Positions 22,295-35,614 of a DNA stretch of 36,574 bases are shown here, one piece after another; position 1 is the first letter of the stretch, and every line of letters starts with the position of its first letter. Location: positions 1 through 36,574 of the forward strand of contig JAGVZY010000006.1 in assembly GCA_018302225.1 (NCBI GenBank), given 5' to 3'. The position numbers and the translations under genes were made by a program. The notes beneath the pieces were generated by a model, which was not told the origin of the DNA, did no database searches, and worked only from the letters and a program-made list of their open reading frames with translations. This DNA is from Candidatus Woesearchaeota archaeon. GTDB lineage: Archaea > Nanobdellota > Nanobdellia > SCGC-AAA011-G17 > JAGVZY01.

Positions 22295-22807
22295 ATGCAA
22301 AAAAAAGACGAAATAAAAGATTTTAACAAAGAAATTCAAGAATTAAAGAAAGACTTTGAAGAATTAAAACAAGAAAGTGAATGTAAAGAAGTTAAAATTC
22401 AAGAATATGAAACTCATTTAAAAAGACTTCAAGCAGATTTTGAAAACTATCAAAAAAGAGTAGATAGAGAAAAACAAGATATTTCAAATTATTCAAATGA
22501 AAAAATTATATTAAAAGTTCTAGAAGCAATAGACAACTTTGAACTTACATTAAAACATATTGATAATGCAAGCAAAGAAGATATTGTTAAAGGAATTCAA
22601 ATGACTGTAAAACAACTTTCAAATGCTTTAGAATCTGAAGGACTAAAAGAATTAGAAGCTAAAGAAAAATTTGATCCTTTTGAAAATGAAGCAATAGAAA
22701 GATTGGGAGAAGGAGATAATATCTCTGAAGTAATACAGAAGGGGTATTCACTAAAAGGAAAGATAATCAGACCAATAAAGGTCAAGATAGGGGGAAAAAA
22801 TGAATAA
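22295..22807 (+). CDS. grpE: GrpE nucleotide exchange factor (170 aa)
   Basis: A long N-terminal coiled coil (residues 1-55, Lys/Glu-rich) is followed by Leu-Gln-Ala-Asp-Phe-Glu-Asn-Tyr and the C-terminal beta domain with Phe-Asp-Pro-Phe-Glu-Asn-Glu-Ala. These match the GrpE family, and the length is near normal. GrpE dimers release ADP from DnaK. It heads the operon; its stop overlaps the dnaK start by 8 bases, so translation is coupled. AGAGGT precedes the ATG. Archaeal hsp70 systems are known to have been gained from bacteria. Confidence 0.95.
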
Positions 22808-24632
22808 AATTATAGGTATAGATTTAGGAACAACATTCTCAGCAGTTGCAATAATGGAAGGTGGAAAATCAAAAATAATTCCAAATACAGAAGGAAATAA
22901 TATTACACCGTCAGTAGTTACTATTAGAAATGATGAAATTGTGGTTGGAGATGTAGCAAAAAGACAAGCCGTCTCTAATCCAAATCACACAGTTAGAAGT
23001 ATAAAAAGATTAATGGGTACTAAAGAAAAAATAGAAATAGATGGTAAAAGTTATTCACCAGAAGAAATTAGTGCTATGATTCTACAAAAATTAAAAAGAG
23101 ATGCTGAAGCATATTTAGGTGAAGAAATAAAAGAAGCTGTAATTACAGTTCCAGCTTATTTTGATGATGCACAAAGAACAGCAACTAAGAATGCTGGAGA
23201 AATTGCTGGTTTAAAAGTTTTAAGAATTATAAACGAACCAACAGCTGCAGCATTATCATATGGTTTAGATAAATCAAATAATCATACTATTTTAGTATTT
23301 GACTTTGGTGGTGGAACATTTGATGTTTCTATATTAGAACTAGGAGAGGGAGTATTTGAAGTTAAATCAACTTCAGGAAACAACCATCTTGGTGGTGATG
23401 ATATAGATGATTTAATAATTGATTATTGTGCTAAAGAGTTTAAGAAAGAGCATGGAATTGATTTAAGAGAAGATAAAACAGCATTACAAAGATTAAGAGA
23501 TTCAGCTGAAAAAGCAAAGAAAGAACTTTCAACTCTGCAAGAGACTACAATAAGTCTTCCGTTTATAACAGCAACTAATTCAGGACCAAAACATCTTGAA
23601 ATTAAATTAACAAGAAGTAAATTAGAAGAATTAATTTCAAGCATACTTGAAAAACTTAAAGTTCCAACTTTAAATGCTTTAAAAGATGCTAAATTAAAAC
23701 CTGAAGATATTAATAAAGTAATTTTAGTTGGTGGTTCAACAAGAATACCTGCTGTTCAAAAATTAGTTAAAGATATTATGCATAAAGAGCCAGATAAATC
23801 TGTTCATCCAGATGAAGTTGTTGCTTTAGGTGCAGCAATTCAAGCAGGAGTATTAAGAGGAGATGTTAAAGATATAGTGTTGTTAGATGTTACACCTTTA
23901 ACTCTTGGAATAGAAACTCTAGGTGGAATTAGAACTCCAATTATAGATAGAAATACAACTATTCCAACTAAGAAGTCCCAAGTATTCTCAACAGCAGCAG
24001 ATAATCAACCAGGAGTAGAAATAAATATACTTCAAGGTGAAAGAGAAATGGCTGCAAATAACAAAAGTCTTGGAAGATTCTTATTAGAAGGTATACCTCC
24101 AGCACCAAGAGGAGTACCACAAATCGAAGTTACTTTTGATATAGATGCAAATGGTATAGTAAATGTCTCAGCAAAAGATTTAGCAACTGGTAAAGAAAAT
24201 AAAATTACAGTAAAAGGAAGTTCAAATCTTACAAAAGATGAAATTGAAAAAATGAGAAAAGAAGCTGAAGCTAATGCAGAAGATGATAAAAAGAAAAAAG
24301 AAGAAATAGAAACTAAAAATCATGCAGAAGCTGTAATCTACCAAACAGAAAAGATGCTTAAAGAATATGGTGACAAAGTAGAAAAAGAAACTAAAGAAAA
24401 GGTAGAAAAAGGCATTGAAGAATTGAAAGAAGCTTTAAAGTCTGAAGAAACTGCAAAAATAAAAGAAAAGCTTGACAAATTAAATGAAACTGCTCAAGAA
24501 ATTGGTGCTAAAATGTATGAAAAACTAAAGAAAGAGCAACTAACTCAAGAACAAGGAAATGCAGAAACAAGCAATGATGACAATGTAGTTGATGCAGACT
24601 ATGAGATGAAAGATAAAGACAAAAAAGACTAA
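22800..24632 (+). CDS. dnaK: Chaperone DnaK (Hsp70, 610 aa)
   Basis: Full-length Hsp70. The nucleotide-binding domain has Ile-Gly-Ile-Asp-Leu-Gly-Thr-Thr near residue 5, Asn-Glu-Pro-Thr-Ala-Ala near 146, Asp-Phe-Gly-Gly-Gly-Thr near 170 and Val-Gly-Gly-Ser-Thr-Arg near 311. The linker is Asp-Val-Thr-Pro-Leu-Thr-Leu-Gly, then the substrate-binding domain and a helical lid ending in an acidic tail. The N-terminal part goes straight from the Arg-Leu-Met-Gly motif to Ser-Pro-Glu-Glu-Ile, so the roughly 24-residue insert of Gram-negative DnaK is absent. This is the type usual in Gram-positive bacteria and archaea. ATP-driven protein folding with DnaJ and GrpE in the cytoplasm. Confidence 0.98.
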
Positions 24633-24675
24633 AAATAATAAGAATTAAAAAGAGGTGTTAACTTTTTAATTTTAT

Positions 24676-25812
24676 ATGAATAAAAAAGACTATTACGAAG
24701 TACTTGGATTAAGTAAAGGTGCTTCAAAGGAAGATATAAAGAAGGCTTACAAAAAGCTAGCTAAACAGTATCATCCTGATATAAGCAAAGATAAGGGCAC
24801 AGAAGAGAAATTTAAAGAAATATCTGAAGCTTATGCTGTTCTTTCTGATGATAATAAAAGAAAACAGTATGATCAATTTGGACATGCTGGATTTGATCAA
24901 AGATATTCTCAAGAAGATATATTTAGAAATGCCCACTTTGAAGATATATTTAGTGAAATATTTGGAAGAAATTCTGGAGATCAAGAAGATTTCTTTGGTG
25001 GAAGTATATTTGATATGTTTTTTGGGGGTAGTCAAAGAAAACAAAGAGGTGCGGATTTAAGATATGATTTGGAAATCACATTAGAAGAAGCTGCAAGAGG
25101 TGTAAAGAAAACTTTGCATTATGAAAGATTAGAAAAATGTAAAGAATGTAAAGGTACTGGTGCTGAAGAGGGAAAAACTGAAACATGTAAACATTGCAAT
25201 GGTACTGGACAATATAAACAAGTTCAAAGAACTCCTTTTGGATTGTTTGCACATACATCAAGATGTGGAGAGTGTAATGGTTCTGGAAAAATTATAATTA
25301 AAAAATGTAAAAAATGTCATGGACATGGAAAAATTAATTCTCAAAAAGAAATTCAAGTAAGTATTCCTGCAGGTGTAGATAATGGAATGCAATTAAGATT
25401 AAATGGTGAAGGTGAAACTGGAAGTCATGGGACTGGAGATTTATATGTTTTTATTCATGTTTTAGAATCTGAAATATATGAAAGAAGAGGCATGGATTTG
25501 TATACTAATACTAAAGTTTCTTTTGCTGATGCAACACTAGGAACAATAATTGAAGTTCCTACATTAGAAGGAAATGCGGAATTAAAAGTTCCAGCAGGAA
25601 CACAACCAGGAACATTATTTAGATTAAAATCAAAGGGTATGCGTAGGGTAAATAGTTCTGTAAGAGGAGATTTGTATATTAAAGTTAATGTTGAAGTTCC
25701 TCAGTCTTTAAGCAAAAGACAAAAAGAATTAATTGAGGAATTAAAAGAAAATGAATCAAAGAAAAAGTCTATATTTGAAAAGATTTCTGAAGCGGTTATG
25801 TTTTTATTTTAA
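24676..25812 (+). CDS. dnaJ: Chaperone DnaJ (Hsp40, 378 aa)
   Basis: Class A DnaJ: J domain at residues 1-70 with His-Pro-Asp at 33-35, a Gly/Phe-rich region (about 75-118) and four CXXCXGXG zinc-binding motifs starting near residues 155, 171, 197 and 211. All eight cysteines are present. A C-terminal substrate-binding region follows. It stimulates DnaK ATPase activity and delivers substrates. The gene starts 43 bases after dnaK, with AAAGAGGTG somewhat far (about 20 bases) from the ATG. Its stop codon overlaps that of the convergent pilus platform gene by 4 bases. Confidence 0.98.
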   Translation: MNKKDYYEVLGLSKGASKEDIKKAYKKLAKQYHPDISKDKGTEEKFKEISEAYAVLSDDNKRKQYDQFGHAGFDQRYSQEDIFRNAHFEDIFSEIFGRNSGDQEDFFGGSIFDMFFGGSQRKQRGADLRYDLEITLEEAARGVKKTLHYERLEKCKECKGTGAEEGKTETCKHCNGTGQYKQVQRTPFGLFAHTSRCGECNGSGKIIIKKCKKCHGHGKINSQKEIQVSIPAGVDNGMQLRLNGEGETGSHGTGDLYVFIHVLESEIYERRGMDLYTNTKVSFADATLGTIIEVPTLEGNAELKVPAGTQPGTLFRLKSKGMRRVNSSVRGDLYIKVNVEVPQSLSKRQKELIEELKENESKKKSIFEKISEAVMFLF

Positions 25813-26769: not shown

Positions 26770-27666
26770 TTAATTTCCTATTAAATTTGGTCTCCTAGTT
26801 CTAATCATACCTAAAAAGATTATTTGAAAAAATAAAACTAAGGCATATAAACCAAAAAATAATAAATTTAGACCGGTTTTACCTAGTGGAAGGAAAGAGG
26901 TCATTACAACTAATAAAGTTGTTGCTAATGAAGGGATAATTATTACTACAAGCATATAAAACATTGCTAGGGGGTTTAATTTTGAACCATAGTTTTCTAT
27001 TTGTATGCTTTGCTCTTTTGAAAGTGAATCTATAACATTTTCCAAAGTATTTTTAATATCACTTCCAGCTTTCATACCATTAACCAATTGCCAAATTGCC
27101 CTTCTAAAAAATAAAGAGGGATTATTTTTTGCAATTTCTTCTAGAGCATCAATTTCTGGATAACCTGCATTTATTTTTTTGACTGCTCTTTTAAATTCGT
27201 CTGAAACAGCACCATAGTTTTCATTTGAAATTGAAACTAAGATATTGAACAAAGGGATTCCTGAATTTAATTGTATTAAAGTTGCTCTTAATGAAGGCAA
27301 TAAATTTTGTTCTATTTTTTTTATTCTTGAATTTAAATAAAATTTTGGATATAAAATTTGTTGAATAAATACAAAAAGTGAAATAATCAAAGATATAAAT
27401 GGAGCTATTAAAAGTGTGTTTTTAAGTTCGAAACTATTAAGTATTAAAAAAAGAAATAAACTGAAAAAGATAAAGAAGAATAAACTAGAAGTTAAACAAA
27501 GAGCAATATAATCTCTTGGCTCTATATTATACTCAACTTGCTCTAAAGTTAGTTTAAGGAAAGGAAAAAATAGTTTTAGTTTCTCTGAAACTCCCTTAAG
27601 GATATTAGAGAATTTGAATAATTGTTTTAAGGGTATAAATGTAAACGGAATCCTGATATTTTGCAT
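26770..27666 (-). CDS. Type IV pilus platform protein, TadB/FlaJ-like (about 298 aa)
   Basis: A second T2SSF protein with hydrophobic helices near the N-terminus, a cytoplasmic domain containing Leu-Leu-Pro-Ser-Leu-Arg-Ala-Thr-Leu-Ile-Gln-Leu-Asn-Ser-Gly and Gly-Met-Lys-Ala-Gly-Ser-Asp, and C-terminal helices. The frame is open from an ATG at 27726, but the ATG at 27666 is preferred: TATA element TATATTTAAA (27687-27699, minus) is centred 27 bases from it, while the 27726 codon lies within the TATA box of the divergent gene. It works with the next gene and the ATPase at 29005. Separated from that ATPase by a plus-strand gene. Confidence 0.85.
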   Translation of the reverse strand: MQNIRIPFTFIPLKQLFKFSNILKGVSEKLKLFFPFLKLTLEQVEYNIEPRDYIALCLTSSLFFFIFFSLFLFLILNSFELKNTLLIAPFISLIISLFVFIQQILYPKFYLNSRIKKIEQNLLPSLRATLIQLNSGIPLFNILVSISNENYGAVSDEFKRAVKKINAGYPEIDALEEIAKNNPSLFFRRAIWQLVNGMKAGSDIKNTLENVIDSLSKEQSIQIENYGSKLNPLAMFYMLVVIIIPSLATTLLVVMTSFLPLGKTGLNLLFFGLYALVLFFQIIFLGMIRTRRPNLIGN

Positions 27667-27755
27667 AGAATTAGGATGGGGTCCAGTTTTAAATATATTA
27701 GTTATTACTATTAAGTAACGAAACATTTATAAATATATATAGATTTTTAGAAAAC

Positions 27756-29000
27756 ATGAATCTAGAAGATAAACTTAAAAAGATTATAAAAAGCAATGAA
27801 GAGCATTTTGAAGAGATAGATACCTTAAGGTATGCAGCTACAGAAGAAATTATGTGTGGTGTTAATGCCTATCTTACAGAAATATTTAATTCTATAGATA
27901 ATAAATCTAAACTAGAAGAAAAAGCAGGTTCAGATTATGAAACTTATTTAGACTTAGCTAAAAATGTTAATGAAGGTAAAGTTGTATTGCCTGAAGCTTT
28001 AAAATCCCAAGTGCAAGATTATATTAAATTAATAGAAACTGAATCACTAAATGAAGTTTTAGTTCCTATAATCTATGTTAAAAGTTCTAATAAGAAAGAA
28101 AGTATAATTTACATACCTTATAATGAAAAGTTAAATGAAATTGTAATTAAAATTGTGGATAAAACTGAAACACAATTAAAGAAAAATAAAACTAAATACC
28201 ACACAACTAAAAGTGCAGAGTATATTAAAATAGAAGTTCAAGGCAACAATATTCAAGAAATTTTGGATACTGCTGTTAGCTCGGGAAGATATGGTTCTAA
28301 AAAACTTTTAAAGCAGTATAACTTAAATTTAAGTTCTATGGAGTTAGAAAGTATATTAAGAAATGGATTTAATCAACCTCAACCTGAAAAAGAAGTAAAT
28401 TCTGAAATTGATTTAAATAAAAATAATAAATCTATTGAAGTTCATGAATTTGCTAGAGTTTATAATGTTGCAGATTTACAAGCAGATAAAAAACAGAGAA
28501 AAGAAAAAGGAATAAAATTTAATGGTGCTGCAATTCATATACCTTCTAAGCTTTATGAAGACTATCTTAAATATGGAGTAATAAATAGAAAAAGTGTCGA
28601 AGATAATAGTATTTCAGGTAGTGTGTTTAAAGAGTTAGTTCAATCAAGTTATAGTGTGGATAAATTAGCAAATAAGCTCAATCTTACTAGGTCTTCTATT
28701 TATAGCGCAATGTTGCACAAAGATTTAGAAGGATTTGAAGTAAGTCATGAAAAATATTTTGCAAAAAATGATGTTATAAATTATTTATTAAAGAAAACTA
28801 ATACTCCCAAATCAGGAAATAGATATAAAGCTAATTTATCTTTTGCCAAAGAATTATTAAATGTTACATTTAGTGAATTAATTAAATATTTAGATGTGCT
28901 TGGAATTCAACCAGAAGATAGTGGTAAAGAAAAGTTGTTAAGTGGAGATAAACTATTCATCTTAAGAGAAAAGCTTTACTCTATCAAAGCTAAAAGATAA
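27756..29000 (+). CDS. Hypothetical protein with C-terminal helix-turn-helix (414 aa)
   Basis: Not recognised. It is a soluble, Lys/Glu/Asn-rich, largely helical protein. Around residues 300-350 there is a DNA-binding-like pattern: Val-Asp-Lys-Leu-Ala-Asn-Lys-Leu-Asn-Leu-Thr-Arg-Ser-Ser-Ile-Tyr, a classic helix-turn-helix spacing. A second helical unit follows at 365-400. It is leaderless: TTTATAAAT at 27726-27734 is centred 26 bases before the ATG. It lies on the plus strand inside the otherwise minus-strand pilus cluster and ends 5 bases before the convergent ATPase gene. It may control the cluster or be an unrelated insertion. Confidence 0.75.
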   Translation: MNLEDKLKKIIKSNEEHFEEIDTLRYAATEEIMCGVNAYLTEIFNSIDNKSKLEEKAGSDYETYLDLAKNVNEGKVVLPEALKSQVQDYIKLIETESLNEVLVPIIYVKSSNKKESIIYIPYNEKLNEIVIKIVDKTETQLKKNKTKYHTTKSAEYIKIEVQGNNIQEILDTAVSSGRYGSKKLLKQYNLNLSSMELESILRNGFNQPQPEKEVNSEIDLNKNNKSIEVHEFARVYNVADLQADKKQRKEKGIKFNGAAIHIPSKLYEDYLKYGVINRKSVEDNSISGSVFKELVQSSYSVDKLANKLNLTRSSIYSAMLHKDLEGFEVSHEKYFAKNDVINYLLKKTNTPKSGNRYKANLSFAKELLNVTFSELIKYLDVLGIQPEDSGKEKLLSGDKLFILREKLYSIKAKR

Positions 29001-29004
29001 TTAT

Positions 29005-30486
29005 TTATTTTTTAATTTCTTTTAAAAGTGTTTCTTTATCTTGATAATAACGAGATATAATCTCTCCAACACTATCGATATCACGAATGTTCTTCTTAGC
29101 CATATATTCTAAAATTTTCTTTTTTTCATTTATTTCTTTAGTTATTTCATTAATAGTCATACCTGTATGGGTGCTTAGATTTTCAAACAATTTTAAACTT
29201 TCATTATGTTGGACTATTGTGTCGTCCACTGCTTTCCATCTATAAAGAATGTTTGGTTTTATAATTGAAGAGCCTTCTTCTTCTCCTAAGATAAATTCAG
29301 AAACTTGTAAAGTTCTTCTTAAACCTCTTTTTCTATCCCTAAACATAACAATATTAATGTTTACAGCTTCAAGCATATTAGAAGGAATTTCTATTGGCGG
29401 ATTAACCAATCTCTGAATAGTCTGATTTGTTGAGTCTGCGTGAACAGTAGCATATACACTATGTCCTGTGTGCATTGCTTCGAAAAGAACTTCTGCCTCT
29501 GCTCTTTTTCTAATTTCTCCAAGTATAATTCTATCGGGTCTCATTCTAAGTGAATTTACAAGTAAATCTAACATTGAAACTTCACCTTTTCCTTCTGGAT
29601 TTGGTTGACGTGTAACTAAAGGACACCAATATAAAAATTTAGGTAATGCAAGTTCTCTTGTATCTTCCATTGAAACTATTCTATGATTTGGTGGAATAAA
29701 AGGCATGCAAGTATTTAAGAAACTGGTTTTTCCAGATGCAGTACCACCACTAAATAAAATATTATTTTCATATTCTATTGCTTCCCAAATTAAAGCATAA
29801 ACATCTGAAGAACAAGTTTTATTCTTGATAAAATCTATCATTGTCCAAGGATCACGTGCAAACTTTCTAAGTGTAATCGTATTACCTTTTGTTGAAATAG
29901 GATATAAAACTGCATTTGCTCTGTCCCCTGTAACTAAATGAGCATCTAATAAGGGAGTTAAACTTGTGATTTGTCTTCCAACTCTTCTTGCAATAATGCT
30001 TGAGAAGTTTGCAATTTGTGCTTCTGTTTTAATTAGAACGTTTGTGGATAACCAACCATACTTTCTGTGATAAACTCTTATTGGCTCTTGTGCAGAATTT
30101 ACAACAATTTCTTCTAGTTGGATATCATTCAGTAAGAATTCAATTAAATCTAAACCAAGCATTTCTTGCATTAATCTTCCAATGAAATATTTTTTTGCTG
30201 TGCCAGTTATTGAAGGCATGTGCAAAGAGATTAATTCTTCTGCTTTTAGTCTAAATCTTTTTTTAAGTTCTTCAATAGTTTTTGGATCAAGAATCTCTGA
30301 TGCAGTTACTTGAACTTGAGTTACCAATTCAGATTTTATTTTGTCTAAAAGTGCTGCAGTCGCTATGCCAATTTCTTGAGTTTTTATAACATAATCTGTT
30401 GCTTTCTTGCCTTGGCCACAAATATGCACTTCTGTAGAAATCTCATCTGCAGTTAATTGATATTTTTCTATTATATCTTTTGCCAT
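29005..30486 (-). CDS. Type IV pilus assembly/secretion ATPase (493 aa)
   Basis: GspE/VirB11 superfamily, archaeal FlaI/TadA-like. Walker A Gly-Gly-Thr-Ala-Ser-Gly-Lys-Thr at residues 247-254, Asp-box Ser-Met-Glu-Asp-Thr-Arg-Glu-Leu at about 272-279, Walker B Arg-Ile-Ile-Leu-Gly-Glu-Ile-Arg at 319-326, and His-box Gly-His-Ser-Val-Tyr-Ala-Thr-Val-His-Ala-Asp at 341-351. The 110-residue N-terminal part is typical of archaeal versions. It is a cytoplasmic hexamer that powers pilin extraction and assembly. It starts 2 bases after the stop of the upstream membrane/winged-helix protein, so they are co-transcribed. No archaellum genes flaG/F/H are present, so a pilus rather than an archaellum is favoured. 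Confidence 0.93.
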   Translation of the reverse strand: MAKDIIEKYQLTADEISTEVHICGQGKKATDYVIKTQEIGIATAALLDKIKSELVTQVQVTASEILDPKTIEELKKRFRLKAEELISLHMPSITGTAKKYFIGRLMQEMLGLDLIEFLLNDIQLEEIVVNSAQEPIRVYHRKYGWLSTNVLIKTEAQIANFSSIIARRVGRQITSLTPLLDAHLVTGDRANAVLYPISTKGNTITLRKFARDPWTMIDFIKNKTCSSDVYALIWEAIEYENNILFSGGTASGKTSFLNTCMPFIPPNHRIVSMEDTRELALPKFLYWCPLVTRQPNPEGKGEVSMLDLLVNSLRMRPDRIILGEIRKRAEAEVLFEAMHTGHSVYATVHADSTNQTIQRLVNPPIEIPSNMLEAVNINIVMFRDRKRGLRRTLQVSEFILGEEEGSSIIKPNILYRWKAVDDTIVQHNESLKLFENLSTHTGMTINEITKEINEKKKILEYMAKKNIRDIDSVGEIISRYYQDKETLLKEIKK

Positions 30487-30487
30487 T

Positions 30488-31504
30488 TTAAGCCTTTGCT
30501 CTTAATTCTGTTTCTCCCATTGCAGGATAATGTAATATCGCTAAGTTTGATTCTTCTAGTATTAAAGCCCATTCTTCAGCTTTTTCTTTGGTAATTCCAA
30601 ATATTTCAACTATTTCTGATAATTTGATTAGTTTATATTCTTTTAATAAGGAGTATAATATATCAATATCTGTTTGATATTGGGACTTTTGTTTTACTAG
30701 ATTTTTTATTTGAGTTATTGGAAGTCTTCGTTTTATAGGCATTTGAATTTCTGGTTTTTTTAGGATAATTTTTTCTTTTCTTGATTCTAAATTTTCTTTT
30801 AGATTTTTTACTTCTTTCTTTGGAACTCTAAATAAAGATCTCTTTTTCATTAAATGCTTTTTTAAAGAGAGTAAAAAGTTTATAATTGTAATAAATAAGG
30901 AAACTATAATAATATAGAGATTATTTGAATAAAATGAGGCTAAGATTAGGATTATTACAACTATATAAACCAAAATAAAAGGCGCCAATATAATCTTTCT
31001 TAGATTTTTAGATTCTAGGGGTTTAGTCTTAAGTTTAATTTTTGGTTGAATTACTTTAGAAGATTTTCTTTTAAAACTAAATAATCTTTTGAAAAAATTA
31101 ACTTTTGGTTTTTCTATTTTGAGTTTTACTTTTGGAGTTTTATGAATATGTGCAATTGAAAATTTATGGGATTCTAAATTTTTGTGATCAAAATGTATTT
31201 TTGGTCTTCTGAAAGAAATTATTGAGATTATAATAATAATTACACCTGTAAAAAGTGCTTTTAGACTTCCAAAATTTAATGAAAGTATTACTAATATTGC
31301 TCCAAGAATATAAAATAAGATAAATTGAAATTTTGCGAGATTTTTTAAATTTTCTTTATGGTCTTCAAATAAAGAAAGCATAGTAAACAAAATTGCGATT
31401 GAAATTAAGATTAATTTATCAAGAATAAATCCGATAAATAGCAAGATAATACCTACCCAATAGATAATTTCAAATAGTATAACCTCTTTTCTTTTAATAT
31501 CCAT
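30488..31504 (-). CDS. Membrane protein with C-terminal winged-helix domain (338 aa)
   Basis: Two hydrophobic clusters (about residues 8-45 and 55-95) and another pair (about 172-215) are separated by very basic loops. The C-terminal about 65 residues (Asp-Ile-Leu-Tyr-Ser-Leu-Leu-Lys to Leu-His-Tyr-Pro-Ala-Met-Gly) look like a cytoplasmic winged-helix ending in a Tyr-Pro-x-x-Gly motif that I have seen in archaeal proteins next to secretion ATPases (unverified memory). It could tether the ATPase to the platform. A TATA element at 31526-31536 centred 27 bases upstream gives a leaderless start, so this gene and the ATPase form a separate unit from the pilins. Confidence 0.7.
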   Translation of the reverse strand: MDIKRKEVILFEIIYWVGIILLFIGFILDKLILISIAILFTMLSLFEDHKENLKNLAKFQFILFYILGAILVILSLNFGSLKALFTGVIIIIISIISFRRPKIHFDHKNLESHKFSIAHIHKTPKVKLKIEKPKVNFFKRLFSFKRKSSKVIQPKIKLKTKPLESKNLRKIILAPFILVYIVVIILILASFYSNNLYIIIVSLFITIINFLLSLKKHLMKKRSLFRVPKKEVKNLKENLESRKEKIILKKPEIQMPIKRRLPITQIKNLVKQKSQYQTDIDILYSLLKEYKLIKLSEIVEIFGITKEKAEEWALILEESNLAILHYPAMGETELRAKA

Positions 31505-31581
31505 AAATATAAATTCTGTTTCTTAGTTTTTAAAGCTGTGTTATAATCAAAAAGTAGTATTTTAATAAAAATCCATTAAAT

Positions 31582-32430
31582 TTAGGCGATTTGCACTCCG
31601 CTTTCTTTAGTAATATCAATTGTGCTTTCTTTTTCTGCTGTAGCTAAATTAATTTTAAAGAAATCAGATGGAAAAGTAACATAAGGTAGTTGGTCTAATT
31701 GATTTAAATAAACAGAAGTGTCAATTTTTATATAGGCTTGTGAATTTGAAACTGATAGTTTTCCACCATCTTTAAGTGTAATATATATTTTTTTGTTGTT
31801 AAAATTAAATTCATTATCTTGATATGGATCTACATATCCTGAGAAATTACAATTTTGTTCTAGACCTTTTGCATCTACTATTAGTTGTATAGCAAGACTT
31901 TGATTTCCAGTAGGAGTAGTATATTCACAAGAAGTTATGGCTGCACCTGTTTGTATTGATAAAAGATACTTATTAAAATTAATTGTTTCTGGAATTACTT
32001 CTAAAGTATTTCCACCCCAAGGATTATGTTGATAAACAATATTATACGGTTTAATTACTAAAGATCTCTTTTCTAAGAAATTGCCTAGATTTACGTCTAC
32101 TTCAGGATATTGAGTTTCAACATAACTTGCAAAATCCTGCAAGTCTACTTGTAGTTTCTTTTCTTGTTTTGTTGGAAGGTCTTCTGAAAACATTATATAC
32201 TCATTTGTAAGATTTACCTCCAAATTAGAACTTGTTAAAAATATTTTTCTAAAACCTGCTTGAACTGCAGAGTCTATTAATCTAACCCTTTCAAGCATAA
32301 TTAATTCTGTGGTAGTTTCATCAAAAGCAGATTTTAAGTCTTTATGAAGCATAGAATAACTTAATAGCGTTAAACCTAACAAAAAGATACCTATTGTAAT
32401 TACAAACCCTTTCTTAGTTATTTTAACCAT
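31582..32430 (-). CDS. Membrane-anchored pilin-like protein (282 aa)
   Basis: ATG at 32430 is preferred to the in-frame TTG at 32436. The N-terminus Met-Val-Lys-Ile-Thr-Lys-Lys-Gly-Phe-Val-Ile-Thr-Ile-Gly followed by about 15 hydrophobic residues resembles a class III signal/assembly helix, but the glycine site is not followed by a Glu at +5. It may therefore be an anchored rather than processed component. The external domain is beta-rich with two cysteines. It overlaps the upstream pilin-like gene by 13 bases, indicating coupled translation. Confidence 0.72.
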   Translation of the reverse strand: MVKITKKGFVITIGIFLLGLTLLSYSMLHKDLKSAFDETTTELIMLERVRLIDSAVQAGFRKIFLTSSNLEVNLTNEYIMFSEDLPTKQEKKLQVDLQDFASYVETQYPEVDVNLGNFLEKRSLVIKPYNIVYQHNPWGGNTLEVIPETINFNKYLLSIQTGAAITSCEYTTPTGNQSLAIQLIVDAKGLEQNCNFSGYVDPYQDNEFNFNNKKIYITLKDGGKLSVSNSQAYIKIDTSVYLNQLDQLPYVTFPSDFFKINLATAEKESTIDITKESGVQIA

Positions 32431-32825
32431 ATCCAATATCTTGCGTTTGCAAAGTATTTTATATTATTTAATTCTGAAATCACAAAAATGTACTTTCCTG
32501 AAGCCACAAATTTATCTTGAGGTATTTCAGAGCCTATATCAAACTCTCCTTGTGGAAAATTTCCAGAGATTTTTAAGTGCATATCATAATTTTCAGGAAG
32601 CATTTCATACATTGAATTTTCTATCTGATTTTCAGAGAGTAAATTTAAATTGTCTATATGCTCAAGAATGGAAACTATATCATTCCCTATACGTACTACT
32701 TGTAATTCTGATTGAGTATCTTCGTTTATTATATTTTTATAGGAAATTGCTAGAATTATTATTAAAATTATTGTAGCAACCATAGCATCATATACAAAGA
32801 TATAACCTTTTTTATTTAATCCCAT
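32418..32825 (-). CDS. Minor pilin-like protein (135 aa)
   Basis: Met-Gly-Leu-Asn-Lys-Lys-Gly-Tyr-Ile-Phe-Val-Tyr-Asp-Ala-Met-Val-Ala followed by a 20-residue hydrophobic helix. Lys-Lys-Gly is the expected processing site, with an acidic Asp near +6 in place of the usual Glu. The short external domain has no cysteines. It overlaps both neighbours (10 and 13 bases), placing it firmly in the pilin operon. Probably a minor pilin, possibly for priming or the tip. Confidence 0.75.
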   Translation of the reverse strand: MGLNKKGYIFVYDAMVATIILIIILAISYKNIINEDTQSELQVVRIGNDIVSILEHIDNLNLLSENQIENSMYEMLPENYDMHLKISGNFPQGEFDIGSEIPQDKFVASGKYIFVISELNNIKYFANARYWIWLK

Positions 32826-33295
32826 AGTGCAAACTCCATTATGTGCGGAACTTTATTGAATAATACAACTCTTTGAGTTGAAATTACATTTTCAGCAGTA
32901 GTAAAATTTCCTGCTTGATATAAAATAGTTCCTTCAGTAGTTTTTAATTTGAAATAAAATTCATATTTTTCAATATTTAATTTTTCTTTGATTTGAGAAT
33001 ATTCTAAAGTAATAAAAGTGTCTAATTTTTCTTTTTTAAGAGTTTTATCCATATAAGCTAAACCAAGAGTCTCTGGCTCTGAAAGGTTGTATTCCCAAGC
33101 ACTTGGTCTTCCAGTAGTAGAAATAAGTAAGTTTGAAACTGAAAAGGCTTTATTTTCCATCAAAGAATATTCTTTTTCCTTTTGAAAAGTAATACTATGA
33201 CTATACCAGAAAGTAAATATTAAAACTAATAAAAACACAAATATGGCTGAGGCTACCATTGCATCCATTGAAAATAGTTGGGCTTTCTTGTTCAT
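32816..33295 (-). CDS. Minor pilin-like protein (159 aa)
   Basis: Met-Asn-Lys-Lys-Ala-Gln-Leu-Phe-Ser-Met-Asp-Ala-Met-Val-Ala-Ser-Ala begins a class III-type signal; Ala replaces Gly at the cut site, and Asp stands near +6. A hydrophobic helix (about residues 13-32) precedes a beta-rich external part. It shares the Asp-Ala-Met-Val-Ala helix start with the pilin-like protein downstream, so the two may be paralogues. It lies 4 bases after the preceding gene and overlaps the next by 10. Confidence 0.75.
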   Translation of the reverse strand: MNKKAQLFSMDAMVASAIFVFLLVLIFTFWYSHSITFQKEKEYSLMENKAFSVSNLLISTTGRPSAWEYNLSEPETLGLAYMDKTLKKEKLDTFITLEYSQIKEKLNIEKYEFYFKLKTTEGTILYQAGNFTTAENVISTQRVVLFNKVPHIMEFALWD

Positions 33296-33299
33296 TTTC

Positions 33300-34274
33300 T
33301 TAGTAATTGATTAAATCTATTGTTCCATTAACATTCCATAATTGATAATCATAACTGAATTCTGTTGAAGTAATATTAGCTGTATTTGAGCAAAAATAAA
33401 AATTTTCTGAATCAAAAATAAGTTCATTGATATTTATAATGTGTGTAGTGATTATTCTTGTAAAATCTTTATTTTCCATATCAGCATTAAAGTCTGGAAA
33501 GTGTGAAATAATTCCGTCACCATATCTCCAATAAGTTATTGCTGGTTTTAAATCTTCAAATCTTGCAACAACAATCTCTTCAGTATTAAAATAAGGATAT
33601 TCATTAAATATGATCTCATCTCCTGTTTCAAATTCATAGACTGGATCATTTTTTGCTGTGATAATTGCTTTTTCATTACCTAAATTTCTACCTCTAAATG
33701 CGAATTCTTTTCCAAATGCAGTTCCTGCAGAGTTTATAGCATGTTCTGAAACAATTAAGGCAGTTCCATTTTTTACTATATTTTCGAATTTTGATAGGTA
33801 AGCTGAATTTAGATGGGGATCTTCTAAATAGATAGTTGTGAATGAATAGGATTTTGAGATAAGTTCATCTAATTTTGAATCAGGATAATAACCACATTTT
33901 CCATCTCCTCTTATAAATTCTTCATGATAAAATCCAGTTAGAGCGGGATTTAAAAAAGCTTCATCAATGTGGCAACTATAATAGGCAACTTTTACAGTAT
34001 TAGGGTTATGGATTGGAGCAGAAACCATTAAAGTGTTGTTAATCATTCTTGAAACTCTTGGGATTGTAGAATTAATTTTTATTCCTGGACCAATTATCAT
34101 TGCTTGATCTATAATATTTGAAATTTGAGTGCAAGACATTTCATTTTCAAAAGATTCTCTTTCTGAAATAAGTTCTGTACGTTTTATATAATTAATGGCT
34201 AATAAACTGATAAATATAACCATCATAATTGCAGCCAAAAACATTATTTCTGCACTTAATTGTCCTTTTTTCAT
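33300..34274 (-). CDS. Pilin-like protein with large external domain (324 aa)
   Basis: ATG at 34274 is chosen over an in-frame TTG at 34292; it follows the upstream stop by 1 base and starts Met-Lys-Lys-Gly-Gln-Leu-Ser-Ala-Glu-Ile-Met, a good class III signal with Glu at +5. After the hydrophobic helix (about 10-30) comes a domain of about 250 residues containing Ala-Leu-Ile-Val-Ser-Glu-His-Ala near 180 and Arg-Tyr-Gly-Asp-Gly-Ile-Ile-Ser-His-Phe-Pro-Asp-Phe near 265. This resembles glutamine-amidotransferase-like (GATase1/ThuA) folds found in archaeal surface proteins, but no catalytic cysteine triad is evident. A pilin fused to such a domain would sit at a tip or surface. Confidence 0.75.
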   Translation of the reverse strand: MKKGQLSAEIMFLAAIMMVIFISLLAINYIKRTELISERESFENEMSCTQISNIIDQAMIIGPGIKINSTIPRVSRMINNTLMVSAPIHNPNTVKVAYYSCHIDEAFLNPALTGFYHEEFIRGDGKCGYYPDSKLDELISKSYSFTTIYLEDPHLNSAYLSKFENIVKNGTALIVSEHAINSAGTAFGKEFAFRGRNLGNEKAIITAKNDPVYEFETGDEIIFNEYPYFNTEEIVVARFEDLKPAITYWRYGDGIISHFPDFNADMENKDFTRIITTHIININELIFDSENFYFCSNTANITSTEFSYDYQLWNVNGTIDLINY

Positions 34275-34275
34275 T

Positions 34276-35292
34276 TTAAGTTTTAAATACAAATTCAGTA
34301 CTCCACTTACTTTGGGTTGAGTTTATTGCAAGAACATGCCATGTAAACCAAGCATTGTTTGTAATTGAACTCATTTGAGTATAACTGGTTGATGAAGTTG
34401 TTGTATTAATAATTATATTTGTGAATGAGCCATAATCTTGTGAAACTTGTAATAAGTAATTGTTTGCTCCTGAAACTGCAGACCATTGGAATGTTGGTGT
34501 TCTTGAAATTCCTGTTGAGGCATTTGCAGGTAAAATTAAAGTTGGAGAGTTTAGTATTAATTCTTCTGGCTCTTCTTCTGGGGGTGTTACTTCGTATAAA
34601 GAACTGTTTACTATAAAATTGATTTGTACAGAGCCCTGCATTGTATTTTCATAGAGATCTTTACATTTTGAATAATAAGTATAAGAACCATCTGAAAGAT
34701 TTAATGAAGCTGAATGATCTGTTGCAGTTCCTGTTAATTGTGAGGGCATTAAATCATAAGTTGTATCTATAGTGGAATATTTACATGTTGCAAATTCATT
34801 TGTGATTACACTTAAAATTACTGGATTTAGGGTTTGTTCTGAAGGCAGGGTTAAAAGGATAACCGGTGCAGAAGTATCATTTTCAGAACCTATTTGAACT
34901 ATACCTGATTCTAAGACTTCTAAGTTTATTAGTTTTAAACCTGAAATTGTTGAAATTGAACCAGTAATATTTCCTTTTGTGAATTCTGCAATATCATAAA
35001 GATTATTTCCTTTTGAATATTTTAAGATAATTTCTTTGTCTAAAATTTGAATAGATTCAACATTTCCTGGAAGTTCTAAACTAATTGATTTTTTTGAGCC
35101 AGGACCAAGAGAGTATAATCTATCTGCATTTGTTGCAATTGTTTTTATGAAATTTTCTGATTTTGAATAAGTGACATTTTCTGTTAAAGTAGTTGTAGCA
35201 TAATAAATAATAGGAATTATAATAAGAAAAGCAACTCCCACTAACATTAAATATTCTACACTTACTTGGGCTTTTTTATTAAAATAAAACAT
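34276..35292 (-). CDS. Pilin-like protein with Ig/fibronectin-type C-terminus (338 aa)
   Basis: The N-terminus Phe-Asn-Lys-Lys-Ala-Gln-Val-Ser-Val-Glu-Tyr-Leu is a class III signal with Glu at +5 and a helix at about residues 12-32. The middle (about 40-240) is beta-rich with an Ig-like pattern and Pro-Val-Ile-Leu. The C-terminal about 95 residues (from Pro-Thr-Leu-Ile-Leu-Pro, through Pro-Thr-Phe-Gln-Trp-Ser to Trp-His-Val-Leu-Ala) are typical of a fibronectin type III domain. This is the first gene of the cluster; GAGGTG precedes the ATG. The fusion suggests an adhesive minor pilin. Confidence 0.8.
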   Translation of the reverse strand: MFYFNKKAQVSVEYLMLVGVAFLIIIPIIYYATTTLTENVTYSKSENFIKTIATNADRLYSLGPGSKKSISLELPGNVESIQILDKEIILKYSKGNNLYDIAEFTKGNITGSISTISGLKLINLEVLESGIVQIGSENDTSAPVILLTLPSEQTLNPVILSVITNEFATCKYSTIDTTYDLMPSQLTGTATDHSASLNLSDGSYTYYSKCKDLYENTMQGSVQINFIVNSSLYEVTPPEEEPEELILNSPTLILPANASTGISRTPTFQWSAVSGANNYLLQVSQDYGSFTNIIINTTTSSTSYTQMSSITNNAWFTWHVLAINSTQSKWSTEFVFKT

Positions 35293-35392: not shown

Positions 35393-35487
35393 AAATGGAA
35401 ATAAAGGTAAAGCTAATCCTTACATTCAATTTTATAAATAATTAATAATAGAAAATATGGGGATGTATAGCGAGGGGTGGATTTGAA

Positions 35488-35513
35488 TTCGGCAGCAATA
35501 TCCCCTATTGCTT
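35488..35513 (-). other. tRNA intron 2, non-canonical position 53/54
   Basis: On the minus strand: A, then AGCAATA-GGGGA-TATTGCT hairpin (7 bp), then GCCG, AA. GCCG pairs with CGGT (C48-U51, one G-U pair). The bulges are GG^A and AA^T. The exon boundaries cannot slide, because the flanking bases differ. Confidence 0.88.
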
Positions 35514-35529
35514 CCACCGACCTCTGGGT

Positions 35530-35543
35530 CTCTCAGATAAGCT
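35530..35543 (-). other. tRNA intron 1, canonical position 37/38
   Basis: On the minus strand AGCTTATCTGAGAG. TGAG pairs with CTCA (C32-A35); the bulges are UA^A and AG^A, above the CTGGG/CCCAG stem. At 14 nt it is near the lower size limit for such introns. Confidence 0.9.
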
Positions 35544-35603
35544 TATGAGCCCAGCGAACACTCCTAGCTGTTCTACCTCGCTATAATTAATAAATAAGTG
35601 GTA

Positions 35604-35614
35604 CTTTTATAAAG
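35604..35614 (-). promoter_or_regulatory. TATA box of the initiator tRNA gene
   Basis: CTTTATAAAAG on the minus strand, centred 27 bases before A1 of the tRNA. At this distance transcription would begin at or within a base or two of the mature 5' end. Confidence 0.65.

Follow-up and report, generated by a model that had tools for sequence, protein, structure and literature searches.

The bond between nucleotides 53 and 54 is among the published non-canonical intron positions of tRNA genes, and the Nanoarchaeota are rich in non-canonical introns (PMC4090602). Multiple tRNA introns have been described in Nanoarchaeum and in ARMAN (PMC4033280), broad specificity in the splicing endonuclease is attributed to the (αβ)2 and ε2 enzymes (PMC6379350), and in Thermofilum an initiator tRNA with a disrupted T arm is encoded as a permuted gene (PMC3218864). 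The 53/54 position was thus known beforehand, and interest centres on the enzyme. By a standing rule, relaxed introns go with two-subunit or fused endonucleases. Our literature search found no publication on a 53/54 intron in Woesearchaeota; subscription journals lay mostly outside that search, and such a publication may therefore exist.

The window analysed here is the whole stretch of 36,574 nucleotides that forms the entire contig C6 of the 814-kb genome of a Candidatus Woesearchaeota archaeon, which is assembled in 21 contigs with a completeness of 99.4%. A tRNA gene lies on the minus strand at positions 35582-35468, its reverse complement being 115 nt long. Exon 1 (35544-35582) supplies tRNA nucleotides 1-37 in 39 bases, including D-loop insertions, and is followed by a 14-nt intron at 37/38 (35530-35543). 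Exon 2 (35514-35529) carries nucleotides 38-53, a second intron of 26 nt occupies 53/54 (35488-35513), and exon 3 (35468-35487) runs from nucleotide 54 to the 3' end, comprising the T loop, T stem and acceptor strand. Removal of both introns gives a 75-mer (GCTGGGCTCATAACCCAG, with ends A...T A) that folds as a cloverleaf with all exon stems intact and is called tRNA-Met(cat) by ARAGORN, which bears out the coordinates and lengths in the preliminary description. It can be seen that the spliced product has a CAT anticodon, an anticodon stem with GGG/CCC pairs, and an A1-T72 type acceptor end, and we assign it, judging class on sequence, to the archaeal initiator tRNA-Met. The unspliced gene, by comparison, is invisible to ARAGORN and to Rfam at the gathering score; in genomes of this type the initiator tRNA can escape gene finders. 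A putative TATA-box-like element recognised by eye, TTTATAAAA, lies at 35605-35613 on the minus strand, between 23 and 31 nt upstream of where the mature tRNA starts, and is a possible archaeal promoter of the gene. Elsewhere in the window, three consecutive frames at 22295-25812 appear by eye from their translations to be GrpE-, DnaK- and DnaJ-like, and a cluster on the minus strand at 26770-34292, with an ATPase and membrane proteins, resembles by eye a secretion system of the archaeal type IV pilus or archaellum-like kind.

Each intron forms the bulge-helix-bulge (BHB) geometry that had been proposed for it, a 4-pair helix between two 3-nt bulges, in each of which the cut follows the second base. 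At intron 1, exon CTCA pairs with intron TGAG between the bulges TA|A and AG|A; at intron 2, CGGT (nucleotides 48-51) pairs with GCCG of the intron between GG|A and AA|T, and the 7-bp inner hairpin AGCAATA/TATTGCT is present as described. Neither intron has the helices on both sides that define a strict BHB, so both are relaxed forms: an inner helix is all but missing from intron 1, and intron 2 is without a full outer helix, showing one extra pair (T47-A), and is hBH-like. Shuffling of intron 2 produced four pairs together with an inner helix of at least five pairs in 13 of 200,000 trials. The corresponding figure for intron 1, 2,404 of 200,000, is weaker. When 13 or 15 nt were removed at 37/38 the ARAGORN anticodon call was lost, and when 25, 26 or 27 nt were removed at 53/54 a tRNA was still called each time; the evidence for the 53/54 boundary therefore comes from the T loop and from the relatives of the gene.

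These relatives were collected by scanning 84,980 species with a gapped pattern that permitted inserts at both positions, which returned 77 records. Fifty-two of them are bacterial and false, consisting of an intact initiator with a chance TTC motif or tandem copy downstream. The other 25 are archaeal, and every one has 24-34 nt exactly at 53/54; by their record titles, from which the group names were taken, they belong to Woesearchaeota, Nanoarchaeota, Aenigmatarchaeota, Nanohalarchaeota or just 'archaeon'. An insert at 37/38 accompanies the 53/54 intron in seven of the 26 genes (the host gene and six others). The phylum sample gave matches in 14 of 371 genomes, a minimum figure given that the pattern is exact. 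For the order, a pattern under which intact genes also qualify matched 29 of 103 genomes, and most of these are uninterrupted at 53/54. The distribution of the intron is patchy; the matched strings of two order-mates are identical to those of one record titled Woesearchaeota (L096) and one titled archaeon (L045), and the host's family contains no further genome. The preliminary description had considered two introns, one of them at 53/54, to be unusual in a DPANN-like genome. This view finds no support, given the 53/54 introns in 25 other records, the two introns in six of them, and a literature that already names Nanoarchaeota and 53/54. The aligned genes instead show a recurrent and constrained DPANN intron, no one-off.

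The constraint is apparent in the pairing of exon with intron. Exon nucleotides 48, 49 and 50 are paired with the 3' part of intron 2 in all 26 sequences, through different bases: position 49 holds a G-C pair in 22 sequences and an A-T pair in four, and position 50 holds G-C in 23, T-A in two and A-T in one, with the changed pairs spread over several differently named records. Together the two positions give 52 Watson-Crick pairs out of 52 with two-sided changes, where shuffles averaged 39.8 and reached at most 47. In 20,000 trials that dealt the introns out to the exons anew, the observed pairing was never equalled; this count is not a probability, being inflated by the shared ancestry of the 26 sequences. 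Position 51 is T-G in 18 sequences and has A opposite G in eight, so the helix often has just three sound pairs. The inner hairpin of intron 2 has at least five pairs in 25 of 26; by the same count, the inner helix in the Aenigmatarchaeota genome G114 (locus L078) is 2 bp. At 37/38, four full pairs are formed in the host gene and in three of the 11 others listed, the remainder having two or three.

Folding of the precursor raises the question of whether the 26-nt insert might simply be kept, unspliced, as an enlarged T arm. The unconstrained minimum-energy fold contains neither BHB motif, retaining instead the T stem with the insert hairpin stacked on top of it; forcing the motif of intron 2 costs 1.6 kcal/mol and that of intron 1 costs 2.3 kcal/mol. 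A retained insert would, however, part the T stem from a T loop that is the standard TTCAAAT in 26 of 26 genes, and two-sided changes preserve the pairing of exon with intron despite its competition with the T stem. We consider retention highly improbable.

We also addressed whether the gene is the only initiator of its genome. A BLAST search of the host genome with the spliced sequence recovered just the three exons of the gene at 35468-35582 and 19-nt T-arm matches in other tRNAs, and the only additional CAT gene matched in full (L009) is of the elongator Met type and intron-free. No intact second initiator, which would have counted against two introns in a working initiator, was found in the assembly, and 35468-35582 is, within that assembly, the cell's only initiator tRNA-Met gene. 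Division into 21 contigs leaves gaps in which an intact copy might hide while this one decays as a pseudogene, and use cannot be proven from an intron-containing gene alone. Set against this are the intact exon stems, the failure to find a second copy at 99.4% completeness, and 25 other records that are interrupted at the same bond and show coordinated changes; a decaying pseudogene is accordingly a very remote prospect.

We conclude that two protein-spliced BHB introns very probably interrupt the sole initiator tRNA-Met gene. In the precursor, exon nucleotides 32-35 would pair with the 3' part of intron 1 and nucleotides 48-51 with that of intron 2, the splicing endonuclease (EndA) would cleave every 3-nt bulge behind its second base, and RtcB would ligate the exons. 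Support comes from the calling of the product as tRNA-Met, the lack of a second initiator in the assembly, inserts at the same bond in 25 records and the conserved pairing, and also from the presence of EndA and RtcB genes and of other host tRNAs with introns of the 37/38 type; against it stand the often unsound pair 51 and a lowest-energy fold without either motif. That the gene is transcribed, that its transcript is cut at these bonds and ligated, and that this EndA handles the relaxed 53/54 motif is inferred. Among the other host tRNAs, two lie on contig C9: L021, called 'Stop' with an intron by ARAGORN, reads by eye as tRNA-Lys(TTT), and L029, called 'Ala(AGC)' with an intron, as tRNA-Asp(GTC), each with a 37/38 intron, indicating that ARAGORN intron placement is unreliable in this genome. 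A further tRNA-like locus (L177, contig C13, 5900-6040) has an Rfam match, no ARAGORN call and, by eye, an insert in the anticodon arm, and is possibly tRNA-Ala(GGC).

The host genome has one RtcB gene and one PF01974 (EndA) gene (contig C13, 149-661), the latter encoding 170 aa in which a single N domain and a single C domain are recognised. The preliminary description expected an (αβ)2 or ε2 enzyme, which is not confirmed. An ε2 enzyme consists of three fused units totalling ~390 aa, and is excluded for this gene. For (αβ)2, no β subunit was found in the host genome with Pfam, one NCBIfam β model (whose sole match is the α gene) or an α profile. That profile, built from seven sequences, found no second EndA copy in five genomes; it detects the Nanoarchaeum β NEQ261 at 8.7e-17 and lists no Aeropyrum or Pyrobaculum β chain, so a β of crenarchaeal type could be missed and the host enzyme may yet be (αβ)2. 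Across 33 genomes searched (the host and 32 others, several of the latter listed as 98-100% complete), most have one EndA gene and two have none; the EndA frame of G114 differs from the single-domain-pair gene of the others in having 406 aa and two domain matches.

A homotetramer of the single EndA, with a specificity broad enough to cut 53/54 introns, would fit both the single PF01974 gene in the host and most of the compared genomes and the failure of the α profile, sensitive as it is to NEQ261, to find a second copy in five of them. A heterotetramer with an undetected β would fit the closest solved chain (3iey_A, the Nanoarchaeum equitans α, a subunit of a heteromeric enzyme), the blindness of the profile to Aeropyrum and Pyrobaculum β chains, and a C-terminal Trp, present in 26 of 26 aligned EndA sequences, that aligns with the α Trp of Nanoarchaeum and Aeropyrum, papers assigning two Arg to the α4 enzyme. 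The Arg and Trp expected for base recognition in (αβ)2 enzymes are both present and invariant, their equivalence being inferred from the alignment. We entertain the homotetramer tentatively, as somewhat doubtful. It is unlikely, in our judgement, that a DPANN-wide initiator 53/54 intron is maintained by a homotetrameric single-gene EndA that uses the Arg-Trp pair on relaxed motifs, which would be a fifth enzyme arrangement. With 26 DPANN initiators carrying a relaxed 53/54 intron and a single detectable EndA, the standing rule becomes testable with one purified protein.

The host introns resemble those of Thermoproteales, other Crenarchaeota and Nanoarchaeota, which are likewise short, occupy 53/54 among other non-canonical sites, in some cases alongside an intron at 37/38, and include relaxed hBH motifs (PMC4090602, PMC4033280). 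They differ in lying on the initiator, in recurring across many DPANN lineages, and in the one short EndA gene detected. The initiator of Thermofilum pendens likewise has a disrupted T arm and needs splicing (PMC3218864), but it is permuted and joined at 59/60, whereas the host gene has normal order and introns. ARMAN-2 is similarly an ultrasmall archaeon with non-canonical introns, and these are cut by a broad-specificity ε2 EndA; its ε protein has 390 aa in three units, in contrast to the 170 aa and single N and C domains of the host enzyme.
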